From: Promethearchaeota archaeon
GTDB taxonomy: Archaea; Asgardarchaeota; Lokiarchaeia; Sigynarchaeales; SOKP01
Direction: 5' to 3'
DNA: 32,321 nucleotides
Assembly: GCA_004524425.1 (NCBI GenBank)
Contig: SDNN01000010.1
Span: forward strand, 1 to 32,321
A program made the translations under genes and the position numbers. Shown here in pieces: positions 9,696-15,800 of this stretch (position 1 is its first letter; each line of letters starts with the position of its first letter). Below the pieces are notes generated by a model. That model was not told the DNA's origin and ran no database searches. It saw only the letters and a list, made by a program, of their open reading frames with translations.

Positions 9696-9908
9696 TAAAT
9701 CAAATCTCCAATGTTAAAGCTTTATCAAAAACTAGAACGTGATTTTTTAACCTAAATATAGTAGTTTAACACTAATTTAGAATGCTAGCATAATAAACCT
9801 TTCAGTATATATTCTTTTTCTTAAAACCTTAATATATTAAAATTTTGAAAGATTTAGTCTTTTCATGATTATTCTAATGCTCTTATTAAAATATTTCATG
9901 TGATATTC
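9696..9908. promoter_or_regulatory. Divergent intergenic region between nucleotidyltransferase and phosphonate gene
   Basis: 213 bases between divergent starts. It contains the second copy of the dispersed repeat (9734-9758) and AT-rich candidate promoter stretches near 9830-9845. No ORF or structured RNA was seen. Confidence 0.4.
9734..9758 (+). repeat. Dispersed 25-bp intergenic repeat, copy 2
   Basis: AGAA, three bases, then the 18-base core GATTTTTTAACCTAAATA, as at 1116-1140. Both copies are also followed shortly by GTAG. Here no plus-strand gene ends just before it, which argues against a simple terminator role. Confidence 0.45.
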
Positions 9909-11837
9909 ATGAGCGAACTCATTAATCAAGCTAATAGAGGTCCCATAAAAGCAGTAATATTCGATTGGGCTGGCACTACAGTCGATTTTGGTTGCTACGC
10001 CCCCACAATTGCATTTAAAAAGATTTTTGAAGAGGAAGGAATTTCTTTAACTATTGATGAGATTCGAAAGCCCATGGGAATAATGAAAAAGGATCATGTT
10101 CGGGTTCTCTGTCAAATGGACAGAGTTAAAATGGAGTGGGAAAAAAAGAATGGCAAAGCACCTGATGAAGATGATGTTGAGATGCTCTATGGTAAATTTG
10201 AACCTACATTACTTCAGAATTTACCAGATTATACTGAACTAATTCCCGGTGTGTTAGAAACGATTGAAAAATTACGCTCAATGCATATTAAGATAGGCTC
10301 TACAACTGGATATACCAAGCCGATGATGGATATTATCATTCCCTTAGTAAAGCAAAAAGGATATCATCCTGATTCAATTATAAACTCTTCAGATGTTCCA
10401 AAAGGTCGCCCTTCACCTTACATGTGTTATTTAAACGCGATAAATCTACAAGCATTTCCTCTCGAGAGAATTGTCAAGGTAGGCGATACAGTGGCCGATA
10501 TTAAAGAAGGATTTAATGCTGGAATGTGGAGCATTGGAGTGATTGTTGGCAGCAGCGAGCTAGGATTGGATTTACAAGAATTTGAAAAGACACGTGAAGA
10601 GATTTTAGCAGAGAAATTATTTGAGATTCGCAAAAAATTCGAGGATGCGGGGGCTCATTATGTTATTGATCGGATTTCTGACTTACCAATAATTATAGAT
10701 AAAATCAACTCAAGATTAGCTAATGGTGATGTGCCATCCTTACCAAGAAATACTTACAAATTGTTGACTCCAGGTCCGATTACCACGACTTCCACGGTAA
10801 AAATGAAGATGTTAACTGATTGGGGCTCTAGAAATGATGATTTCAAGGAACTAGTGGAGAATATAAGAAAAAGATTGGTAAAATTGGCTACTCTAAAAAT
10901 CGATGATTATACAGCAATTATCATGCAAGGAAGCGGGACTTTTAGCATTGAATCAGTAATAGGAACTTCGATTCCTGCGAATGGAAAACTATTAGTTCTT
11001 GTTAATGGTGCTTATGGGAAACGCATGATTCAAATAGCCAAAATTTTGAACATAAAAACGGTTGTAATGGAATGCAATGAGCTGCAAATACCAGATTTGA
11101 ACGAAATGAAAAAAATTTTGCAGCAAGATTCCGAAATCACGCATGTTAGTTGCGTGCATTCAGAAACAACTACAGGAATTATAAACCCAATAGAAAAGAT
11201 TGCAAAGATTGTAAAAGATTTTAAAAAAATCTTGATAGTGGATGCAATGAGTAGCTTCGGAGCAATTCCTATTGACATTGGAGAACTTAACATAGATTTT
11301 TTTATAAGCTCTCCCAATAAAAATCTCCAAGGAGTGCCTGGTTTTTCTTACATCATTGCTAAAACTGAAGAGGTTACAAAATGTAAGGGCATGGCACGAT
11401 CCTTATCGTTAGATTTGCATGATCAGTGGCAAAGATTGCAGCAAATTCCTGGGAGTTTCCGATTCACCTCTCCTGTTCATGTAATTAGAGCATTTCATCA
11501 AGCACTCCTTGAATTAGAGCAAGAAGGAGGTATAGAAACACGTTATCAACGATATAAAACGAATCAGAAGATTCTTGAGGAAGGCATGAAAGAGTTGGGT
11601 TTTGAACAACTTCCTTTAGGAGAACACCAAGGTCCGATCATTACCACTTTTTACTCGCCTCAAAGCAACAAATATGATTTTAAAAAATTCTATGAAATAC
11701 TGCAAAGAAATGGATTTGTCATTTATCCGGGTAAGACAACCATAGCAGATAGTTTTAGAATAGGAACGATAGGAGAAATATATCCAGAAGATGTTAAAAA
11801 ACTCTTAAGCGTCATAGAAACCTCCATATTTTGGTAA
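9909..11837 (+). CDS. phnXW: Bifunctional phosphonoacetaldehyde hydrolase / 2-aminoethylphosphonate-pyruvate transaminase
   Basis: A 642-residue fusion. Residues ~10-265 are a HAD-type phosphonoacetaldehyde hydrolase: nucleophile D19 in IFDWAGTTVD, the Schiff-base lysine K60 in PMGIMKKDHVR, GSTTGYT, and KVGDTVADIKEG. Residues ~280-642 are a class V aminotransferase of the PhnW type, with LLTPGPITTT, VDAMSSFGAIP and the PLP lysine K471 in SSPNKNLQGVPGF. Together they would convert 2-aminoethylphosphonate plus pyruvate to alanine, acetaldehyde and phosphate. Both active sites look intact. ATG at 9909 is preferred to the in-frame GTG at 9900 because the extra residues are not family-like. No phosphonate uptake gene is seen nearby. 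Confidence 0.92.
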   Translation: MSELINQANRGPIKAVIFDWAGTTVDFGCYAPTIAFKKIFEEEGISLTIDEIRKPMGIMKKDHVRVLCQMDRVKMEWEKKNGKAPDEDDVEMLYGKFEPTLLQNLPDYTELIPGVLETIEKLRSMHIKIGSTTGYTKPMMDIIIPLVKQKGYHPDSIINSSDVPKGRPSPYMCYLNAINLQAFPLERIVKVGDTVADIKEGFNAGMWSIGVIVGSSELGLDLQEFEKTREEILAEKLFEIRKKFEDAGAHYVIDRISDLPIIIDKINSRLANGDVPSLPRNTYKLLTPGPITTTSTVKMKMLTDWGSRNDDFKELVENIRKRLVKLATLKIDDYTAIIMQGSGTFSIESVIGTSIPANGKLLVLVNGAYGKRMIQIAKILNIKTVVMECNELQIPDLNEMKKILQQDSEITHVSCVHSETTTGIINPIEKIAKIVKDFKKILIVDAMSSFGAIPIDIGELNIDFFISSPNKNLQGVPGFSYIIAKTEEVTKCKGMARSLSLDLHDQWQRLQQIPGSFRFTSPVHVIRAFHQALLELEQEGGIETRYQRYKTNQKILEEGMKELGFEQLPLGEHQGPIITTFYSPQSNKYDFKKFYEILQRNGFVIYPGKTTIADSFRIGTIGEIYPEDVKKLLSVIETSIFW

Positions 11838-13125: not shown

Positions 13126-13866
13126 ATGATTCAGGATTTAGTGATCATAAAAGACGGCATTCCGTTATTGTCAAAAAATCTCTGTAATTCACAAGAGAGT
13201 ATTTTTGCTAAAGAAGAGAATCTTATATTATTAAGCGGTTTTTTTTCAGCATTGAATAGTTTTTCTGATAAGTTTGAAAGCTTGGGTTCGATAAGTGAAT
13301 TAAAGCTTTCTAATACTGACTTAAAACTATCATTTCTAAGAGATGAGGAAACCAATATAATATATTTAGCAACCTTTGATAAGGCATCAAAAAGTCTAAA
13401 AGTACATAGATTTTTAAAAAATGTCTCTCAAAATTTTTTAAAAAAATATAATGTGAATCAGCTAAAACGATGGGATGGAAGAAGAGAAAGATTTGAAACG
13501 TTTGAGGAAGAATTGGATAAATATGTTATTATTAATGAGCAAGGAGAAAACCAGCAAGAAATTGATGAGGAAATAAATATTAACTTGGACGTTGAGAAAT
13601 ACATGGGGAGAGAGAGCATTCATGAAGATTCATTATTACAAGAATCTCCAGACTATTACAAGTTCATACCTACTTTTAGAACAGCCAAGAAAATTTTTCC
13701 CCAGTATTATTTAACCAGTGAAATATCTCAGAAAGCATTTAATGAAATTGATGGAAAGAAATCTATATTTAAAATTGCACGGGCTCTAAATTTGGAAGTA
13801 AATAAAGTCTATAGCACATGCAAAAGTCTGGTAAAATGCGGTTTCATAGATTTAAAAGAATCCTAA
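13126..13866 (+). CDS. Asgard-type longin/roadblock-like protein with C-terminal winged helix
   Basis: A 246-residue protein. Residues 1-~115 show the pattern of longin/roadblock-like domains common in Asgard archaea: a first strand with DLVIIKDGIPLLS, a helix around LLSGFFSALNSFSDKF, paired strands (ELKLSNTDLKLSFL, IIYLATF), and a last helix NVSQNFLKKY. Such domains in eukaryotes bind or regulate small GTPases. A charged linker (~125-175) follows. Residues ~185-244 look like a winged helix (SQKAFNEIDGKKSIFKIARA, then KVYSTCKSLVKCGFIDL). Its start faces the GHMP kinase. It precedes the CheR-CheD fusion by ~105 bases in the same direction, suggesting a shared signalling role. Function is inferred. 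Confidence 0.6.
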   Translation: MIQDLVIIKDGIPLLSKNLCNSQESIFAKEENLILLSGFFSALNSFSDKFESLGSISELKLSNTDLKLSFLRDEETNIIYLATFDKASKSLKVHRFLKNVSQNFLKKYNVNQLKRWDGRRERFETFEEELDKYVIINEQGENQQEIDEEININLDVEKYMGRESIHEDSLLQESPDYYKFIPTFRTAKKIFPQYYLTSEISQKAFNEIDGKKSIFKIARALNLEVNKVYSTCKSLVKCGFIDLKES

Positions 13867-13970: not shown

Positions 13971-15800
13971 ATGATTACTGCATTAACTAAAGAATCCAAT
14001 TCAATGGATGCTTTAATTGACAAATTGAAAGAAATCACGGGTATCAAATTTGAATATTATCAAAGAAAATTCCTTGAAAAGCGCATTAATTTCAGGATAA
14101 ATGATTTAGAATTCAGTTCAAATGAGGAATATCTTAACCACCTTATAGAGAATCCGCAAGAAATAAATAAGTTCTTAGAAAAATTTACAATTAACTATAC
14201 GTATTTCTTTAGAAATTATGAGATATTTGAAAAACTTGAAAAATATCTCAGGATATACGTAAAAAGCCTAAAAAGAAACTTACGTATTTGGTCGGCACCC
14301 TGTGCCACTGGAGATGAACCGTATTCGATTGCAATCATGCTTGATAAGTTAAAAAATCATATTACAAATTTTCCTGATTATGAAATAATAGCCTCTGACA
14401 TAGATCCAAGAGCCATAGAAATCGCAAAAATTGGTATATATGGTGAGTATTCACTCCATGAGATTCCTAAATTTTATATAGATAAATTCTTTAATAAAAC
14501 AGATACTCCAATCGGTCCAAAGTATTCTATAAGTAATAAAATAAAAAACAAAGTAGAATTTATTGAAGAAGATATCATTAAAGGTCATGAAAAAAAAAAT
14601 AGATATGATGTGATATTATGCAGAAATTTTCTTATTTATTTAGATAAAGATTCCCGAGAAAAACTGTTTAAAACCTTTGAAAATCATTTGGTAGAAGGAG
14701 GATTATTAATTTTAGGAAAAACTGAATCAATTATGAATTCTAAAGCTCATCTTAAAGTTATTGATAATGTTGATCGGTTTTATGTTAAAAATAGACCCCT
14801 TCATGATTTTAGACTCCAAATGGATAAGAAAATATCATTTAACAAGACAATGCATAAAAAGAAAATTGATTCTGACAAAAATGAACTACTAAGGAAAGAA
14901 AATGAAAGTAAAAAAGTAAAAGTAAAGGAAAATTTAGAACCTAATTCTTTATTAAGAACACGTTCAGACCTCATTGAAGATGATAACTTTATCCTGGCAA
15001 TGAATAAATCAGAAATTTTGGAGAGAAAGGAAAAAGAATTAGAAAAGAAGGAAATGCAAATCATGCGAAGGTTGAATGAAATAAAGATGAGAGAAGAAGG
15101 GGTAGAAAAGCGAGAAATTTACTTAAACCAAAGAGAAATATTGATAGGGATTAGAGAAAAAGAAATAAAACAAAGAATGTCTCAAATTAAGTTAAAAGAA
15201 AAGGAAATCATTAATTTAGAGCAGAAACATGGTAGCCTCGATAATAATAAAGATAAAATAGATTACAAACCTACAAACGATCGAGTAATCAAACCAAACA
15301 TGAAAGGGGAACTGAACTTGCCTGTTGGTCACTATGCCTTGATCAATCTACATGATAAAAATAACGAATCAACAAAATTTTCTGCTTATTCCGTGGGTGC
15401 TGGAATCGCTATAATCCTAAAAGATGAAATTAATAAGGTATATGCCATGTCACATGTATCTCATCCGAAAGCAAGGAAACCTAAAAAAGGAGCTGAAATA
15501 AAATCTCCTCACAAATTCGCGGATAGTTCATTCAATTTTTTATTAGATAACATATTATACCATGGAGCTAACAGAGAGAATCTCAAGGCTATTATCATTG
15601 GAGGATCAAACGACATTTATCACCAGGATAAATTGCATCAAAAAAATATTGATGCAATCAAAGAAGTATTATACTCCAATAAAATTTATATTGAAAAGGA
15701 ATTTTTGGGGGGTATATGTGAGAGATCAGTATTGTTTGATGCTGAGAATAAATTACTTTATATTAAAAAGATATGGGAAGATAAATTTAGGCTCATGTAA
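13971..15800 (+). CDS. CheR methyltransferase - coiled coil - CheD-like fusion
   Basis: A 609-residue three-part protein. Residues ~10-275 form a complete CheR: TINYTYFFRN (~73-82), the SAM-binding SAPCATGDEPYSIA (108-121), ASDIDPRAIEIAKIGIY, LCRNFLIYLD, and LGKTES. CheR methylates glutamates of chemoreceptors. Residues ~345-420 are a highly charged coiled coil of Glu/Lys/Arg repeats. Residues ~449-602 align with CheD (PVGHYALIN, YAMSHVSHP, KFADSSFNFLLDNI, IIGGSN, GGICERSV). The CheD position of the catalytic cysteine reads Gly478 (VGAGIA for LGSCVA), the upstream Thr is also lost, and His495 remains. So deamidase activity is unlikely and the domain may serve binding. No chemoreceptor, CheA or CheY gene is present in the window. 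Confidence 0.85.
   Translation: MITALTKESNSMDALIDKLKEITGIKFEYYQRKFLEKRINFRINDLEFSSNEEYLNHLIENPQEINKFLEKFTINYTYFFRNYEIFEKLEKYLRIYVKSLKRNLRIWSAPCATGDEPYSIAIMLDKLKNHITNFPDYEIIASDIDPRAIEIAKIGIYGEYSLHEIPKFYIDKFFNKTDTPIGPKYSISNKIKNKVEFIEEDIIKGHEKKNRYDVILCRNFLIYLDKDSREKLFKTFENHLVEGGLLILGKTESIMNSKAHLKVIDNVDRFYVKNRPLHDFRLQMDKKISFNKTMHKKKIDSDKNELLRKENESKKVKVKENLEPNSLLRTRSDLIEDDNFILAMNKSEILERKEKELEKKEMQIMRRLNEIKMREEGVEKREIYLNQREILIGIREKEIKQRMSQIKLKEKEIINLEQKHGSLDNNKDKIDYKPTNDRVIKPNMKGELNLPVGHYALINLHDKNNESTKFSAYSVGAGIAIILKDEINKVYAMSHVSHPKARKPKKGAEIKSPHKFADSSFNFLLDNILYHGANRENLKAIIIGGSNDIYHQDKLHQKNIDAIKEVLYSNKIYIEKEFLGGICERSVLFDAENKLLYIKKIWEDKFRLM

Follow-up and report, generated by a model that had tools for sequence, protein, structure and literature searches.

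A CheR methyltransferase fused to a CheD domain without the catalytic cysteine in Asgard archaea

Why would an archaeon tie a methyltransferase of chemotaxis to a deamidase that appears to be dead? The question is raised by a gene in the window analysed here, the whole 32,321-nucleotide stretch of contig SDNN01000010.1 (assembly GCA_004524425.1) of Promethearchaeota archaeon. The gene (13971..15800, forward strand) encodes a 609-residue protein in which CheR is joined through a long coil to a CheD-fold domain lacking the catalytic cysteine. The fusion is probably an Asgard enzyme of chemoreceptor adaptation composed of an active CheR, a coil, and a CheD-derived binding module without deamidase chemistry. 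The architecture, predicted fold, family-wide loss of the cysteine, purifying selection, and co-occurrence with che genes are the observations from which methyltransferase activity, docking, choice of ligand, and control by phosphorylated CheY (CheY-P) are inferred.

The domains of the protein, all encoded on the forward strand, were delineated from Pfam matches and a predicted structure. The all-α CheR_N domain (residues 13–62, 14007..14156; PF03705, 5.5e-08) is followed by the S-adenosylmethionine (SAM)-binding domain (residues 75–265, 14193..14765), and the predicted model has the CheR fold. The FFR motif (residues 79–81, 14205..14213) and the acidic ASDID motif (residues 141–145, 14391..14405) are present; together with CRN, we take them to be SAM-binding or catalytic motifs of CheR. 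Residues 334–420 (14970..15230) are predicted to form a single long helix or coil and carry a period-7 signal. The C-terminal domain (residues 444–609, 15300..15797) matches CheD hidden Markov models (HMMs) and is predicted to adopt the CheD fold. In the alignment, Gly478 (15402..15404) occupies the place of the catalytic cysteine, and His495 (15453..15455) is the counterpart of the catalytic histidine.

A protein search with the window fusion returned 196 relatives at E ≤ 1e-3, and the 120 of these that were listed were aligned; because the rows were retrieved by similarity to the query, they are not a random sample. The CheR–coil–CheD architecture thus has at least 120 listed homologues. They are not restricted to a single genome, since the source organisms are named as Promethearchaeota and as Loki-, Hermod-, Hod-, Thor-, and Odinarchaeota. 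The first-pass annotation had described the CheR part as active-looking, and the motifs of the listed homologues agree with this: the arginine of FFR is present in 115 of the 120 rows, with the other five gapped, and both aspartates of ASDID as well as CRN are present in all 120. The replacement of the cysteine, noted at first for the window protein, extends to the whole family. The column contains glycine in 94 rows, serine in 22, glutamate in two, gaps in two, and cysteine in none (0/118 covered rows). The histidine, correctly reported as retained, is found in 90 of the 118 covered rows and is replaced by asparagine in 15, tyrosine in 11, and arginine in two (two gaps). The column of the upstream threonine contains isoleucine (105), valine (10), alanine (2), methionine (1), and two gaps.

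A CheD model was searched against 227 genomes of the phylum and matched 58 proteins in 46 of them: 40 not fused to CheR, 17 loci of the long fusion, and one short fusion. Of the 40 unfused CheDs, all except L012 and L109 extend over the site, and each of these 38 has the cysteine. At the 16 long-fusion loci that cover it (all except that of G193), the residue is glycine in nine, serine in five, threonine in two, and cysteine in none. The loss of the cysteine maps as a single change on the CheD tree, where 29 long fusions cluster with a support of 80; a second tree, from which G002 and G088 were omitted, groups the long fusions with a support of 97. Six of the genomes with a long fusion also hold a cysteine-bearing CheD (G001, G091, G097, G189, G191, and G198), whereas in four (G002, G088, G210, and G211) no CheD was found apart from the dead fused one. 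The absence of the threonine had been read as a further sign of inactivity; however, threonine is present in only one of the 38 cysteine-bearing CheDs, and its absence therefore says nothing about loss of activity. Another variant of CheD architecture is a 311-residue protein of genome G181 (L110, 101-1036, reverse strand), in which a repeat-like N-terminal part that is not CheR precedes a CheD that keeps the cysteine.

The serine in 22 of the 118 listed rows, the serine or threonine at seven of the 16 covered genome loci, and the histidine kept in 90 rows are what could be expected if the CheD half were still catalytic, through another nucleophile or as a methylesterase. However, the most common residue at the site is glycine, a residue without a side chain that could serve in catalysis, and the histidine is missing from 28 of the 118 rows. 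Residual catalysis is therefore improbable.

The Cys-less CheD domain is under purifying selection. Ratios of nonsynonymous to synonymous substitution rates (dN/dS) were determined by Nei–Gojobori counting, in which many dS values exceed 1. In 21 pairs of seven related genomes, the ratio is about 0.06–0.18 for the CheD part (one pair with saturated dS), 0.10–0.20 for CheR, and 0.12–0.65 for the coil. For 115 rows of nearly full length, pairwise identity averages 0.63 for CheD, 0.61 for CheR, and 0.37 for the coil. A decaying, functionless remnant of the fusion would leave broken copies, such as those in G115, G188, G190, G192, G193, and G196, and a looser CheD than CheR, as is found in the lineage of the window and G001. 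However, the CheD part is as constrained as CheR in the seven related genomes and equally conserved over the 115 rows, and CheR has been lost along with the CheD part from the grossly broken copies. It is very unlikely that the domain is such a remnant.

The integrity of the fusion tends to go with the presence of CheA. Signalling domains of methyl-accepting chemotaxis proteins (MCPs) were found in 15 of the 17 long-fusion genomes, and CheA in ten. All ten CheA-positive genomes contain CheW, CheC-type domains, MCPs, and an unbroken fusion frame; no CheC-type domains were found in the other seven, which are those without CheA. Ten of the 11 unbroken fusions are in genomes with CheA, and all six broken copies are in genomes without it (Fisher p 0.0006, uncorrected for kinship). 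In G188, G192, and G196, the frame is interrupted at one point, by a stop or by a break of frame; in G196 this is an in-frame stop within the CheR_N part. Large parts are missing in G115, G190, and G193. Some of the gene absences in long-fusion genomes may be faults of assembly. In five genomes (G091, G097, G191, G195, and G198), the frame up to the first CheR_N helix contains none of the codons ATG, GTG, and TTG, and the true start is therefore uncertain; these fusions may use a rare start codon or have a shortened N-terminus. A KIS/KIT...SI pattern is conserved before this helix at the same loci (L077, L078, L108, L100, and L101 of G091, G097, G191, G195, and G198).

Whether the fusion still serves chemotaxis can be judged from its surroundings. 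Were it to methylate a protein other than a receptor, it could be kept in a genome such as G195, where no CheA, CheW, or CheC was found, and it could reside outside che clusters, as it does in the syntenic lineages including that of the window, where it is placed amid metabolic and translation genes. However, the fusion is located within the che cluster in three genomes, and the two long-fusion genomes without MCPs, G190 and G193, carry only broken copies. A departure from chemotaxis thus appears unlikely.

The preferred reading, a methyltransferase guided by a CheD-derived binding module, leads to a possible mechanism. The pseudo-CheD would dock on receptor helices, on CheC domains, or on both, including those of a CheW–CheC protein of the same genomes, and these contacts would bring CheR to receptors or take it away from them. 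The xWxxF sequence is a C-terminal pentapeptide motif of receptors, and an inspection by eye of 22 MCPs (12 genomes) showed no such pentapeptide at any of their ends; docking could bring the methyltransferase to receptors without such a tether. Through CheC, methylation could become responsive to CheY-P. According to a study of Bacillus subtilis (PMC3513319), binding of CheD to CheC and receptors outweighs its deamidase activity, CheY-P increases the affinity of CheC for CheD more than sevenfold, and CheD residues M101 and F102 contact CheC. We place M101/F102 at the Met-Phe of the GGASMF motif of Thermotoga maritima, so that its phenylalanine would correspond to F102; a phenylalanine is aligned there in 97 of 117 fusion domains. 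The first-pass annotation had suggested that the domain holds CheR near a CheD ligand, either a receptor or a CheC/CheY partner. This remains the best reading, and both the purifying selection and the co-occurrence of CheA, CheW, CheC-type domains, and MCPs in ten of the 17 genomes are consistent with it.

Several results weigh against this reading. The window protein has Asp548-Ile549 (15612..15617) in place of the Met-Phe pair, and its own contact with CheC is therefore doubtful. The che genes of the window's own genome, which the first-pass annotation had proposed to examine, fall outside the 227-genome survey. In nine pairs that include the window or G001, dN/dS is 0.24–0.47 for CheD vs 0.15–0.29 for CheR; compared with the window protein, the CheD part has a median identity of 0.44 and CheR one of 0.55. 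The fusion frame of G195 is unbroken, yet CheA, CheW, and CheC were not found there, which may reflect a gap in the genome or indicate that CheC is dispensable. The single breaks in G188, G192, and G196 could be assembly errors, and if only gross losses are counted as broken, the association with CheA has a p of 0.051, also uncorrected for kinship. Finally, a preference for glutamate over glutamine at a modification-type site in receptors of genomes without a cysteine-bearing CheD is unsupported by the 22 MCPs from 12 genomes, which are a chosen part of the MCPs found (L117 and L128 gave none by pattern). A preliminary motif count, which missed diverged sites, gave sites with glutamine in 0/2 in genomes without cysteine-bearing CheD vs 9/23 in genomes with it. 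In the aligned MCPs, the column that varies within the second modification stretch contains glutamine in 4/6 vs 8/16, showing no correlation.

One column beside the MCP hairpin has glutamine in 3/6 receptors of genomes without cysteine-bearing CheD vs 15/15 of those with it. The three glutamates belong to a single lineage (G002, G210, and G211), and we know of no receptor modification at this column. None of the other listed alignment columns separates the two sets of genomes.

The long form most likely originated in an Asgard che operon, where a cheR and a cheD next to each other became one gene, and the cysteine was probably lost afterwards. In the che cluster of G001 (L083), which is on a different contig from the fusion, cheR and cheD are adjacent, 14 bases apart, and in the same order as in the fusion. 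The cheR of this cluster falls inside the fusion group of the CheR tree (support 85), and the nearest cysteine-bearing CheDs of the long fusions are those of G001-type clusters (trees with moderate support). No cheR–cheD adjacency was seen in the cluster pieces of G091 and G097 or in G197.

A second CheR–CheD family has a short linker and comprises five proteins of 405–476 residues. All five have the cysteine and histidine of CheD; however, the arginine of FFR is replaced by asparagine or lysine and the first aspartate of ASDID is missing in each of them, whereas 30 CheR rows from genome loci have this aspartate in 30/30 and the arginine in 28/30 (one gap). Judged by these residues, the long form looks like a methyltransferase with a dead deamidase, and the short form like a deamidase with a dead methyltransferase. 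The two forms are on the same side of a CheD-tree branch with a support of only 61, and the short form is nested among long forms in the CheR tree. This nesting and the position of the G001 cheR inside the fusion group are not what a single simple fusion predicts, and one shared fusion event for both forms is neither shown nor rejected. The two forms were not found together in any of the 227 genomes, G130 being the sole short-form genome and lacking the long form. When the CheD part of the short form was used as a query for fused CheDs elsewhere, nothing beyond the five known short fusions was retrieved, by a word-based method of limited sensitivity. It is tempting, if rather doubtful, to suppose that an early Asgard CheR–CheD fusion gave rise, through reciprocal losses, to two half-dead enzymes that complement each other, the dead half of each targeting the same receptor or CheC sites, and that adaptation is a competition between fused pseudoenzymes.

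The fusion is part of a conserved neighbourhood in the window, G001, G091, G097, G115, G188–G193, G195, G196, and G198. At all 14 loci of this syntenic group, a 246-residue protein is encoded directly upstream on the same strand (13126..13866 in the window). It was considered as a dedicated partner and rejected: its relatives occur in 171 of the 227 genomes, compared with any CheD in 46, and its reading frame is uninterrupted even beside broken copies of the fusion. The best PDB match of this protein has an E of only 0.66. Elsewhere in the window, a HAD hydrolase domain and a class V aminotransferase are encoded together in a single open reading frame (ORF; 9900-11837, forward strand), and an Rfam scan of the window gave no match at the gathering score.

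In G002, G088, G210, and G211, CheC-type motifs occur only in frames of 653–665 residues that also match CheW. The six long-fusion genomes with a cysteine-bearing CheD additionally hold a CheC of about 224–234 residues. For G001, the large protein was verified as CheW and CheC and the small one as CheC; the former, with CheW fused to CheC-type repeats, is encoded in the che cluster (L083 6119-8026, reverse strand; CheW 1.4e-18, CheC 1.3e-39). The same cluster includes, near CheB, CheC, and CheD, a 321-residue roadblock and Ras-like GTPase protein (L083 338-1300, reverse strand; Ras 1.7e-35, Robl_LC7 5.4e-05, matches determined for L083 alone), and ORFs with similar starts are present at L084 712-1668 and L114 9275-10234. 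A 189-residue protein of the cluster (L083 5472-6038, reverse strand) looks gelsolin-like by eye, has in Pfam only a weak match to TRPM_tetra (0.0049), and has similar ORFs in L084, L085, and L114. An LCIB-type β carbonic anhydrase gene follows the fusion in all three che clusters that hold it; the assignment was tested in L002 only (10140-10934; PF18599, 5e-33), and the ORFs at L105 9098-9901 and L107 7046-7852 start similarly.

A literature search, with most subscription journals outside its scope, found no paper joining Asgard, CheR, and CheD and none on CheD as a pseudoenzyme; judged by title and the start of the abstract, none of the papers retrieved for Asgard chemotaxis with CheA and CheR or for archaeal CheR/CheD fusions, the latter a work on Geobacter, deals with the topic. 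The fusion suggests that an Asgard lineage has retained CheD as a binding module and given up its catalysis, as the genetics of B. subtilis hinted. The long form is a natural separation-of-function protein for testing the role of CheD, and it opens adaptation in Asgard chemotaxis to study.

The fusion resembles the CheD deamidases of T. maritima (2f9z) and B. subtilis in its predicted fold, GG motif, and HMM matches, and most of the fusion domains share the CheC-contact phenylalanine; it differs in that the cysteine is absent from all 118 covered listed homologues and in being joined to CheR. With the CheR methyltransferase of B. subtilis (5ftw) it shares the CheR_N and CheR fold and the FFR, ASDID, and CRN motifs, to which the Asgard protein adds a C-terminal coil and pseudo-CheD. 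CheR is also joined to another domain in the fusions with tetratricopeptide repeats (TPR) of PMC3447774; however, the module there is a TPR, whereas that of the Asgard fusion is a pseudoenzyme from the same pathway. In the CheC/CheD/CheY-P system of B. subtilis (PMC3513319), CheD matters mainly by binding CheC and receptors, as is proposed for the Asgard fusion, but, unlike its counterpart in that fusion, it is a separate and catalytically competent protein.
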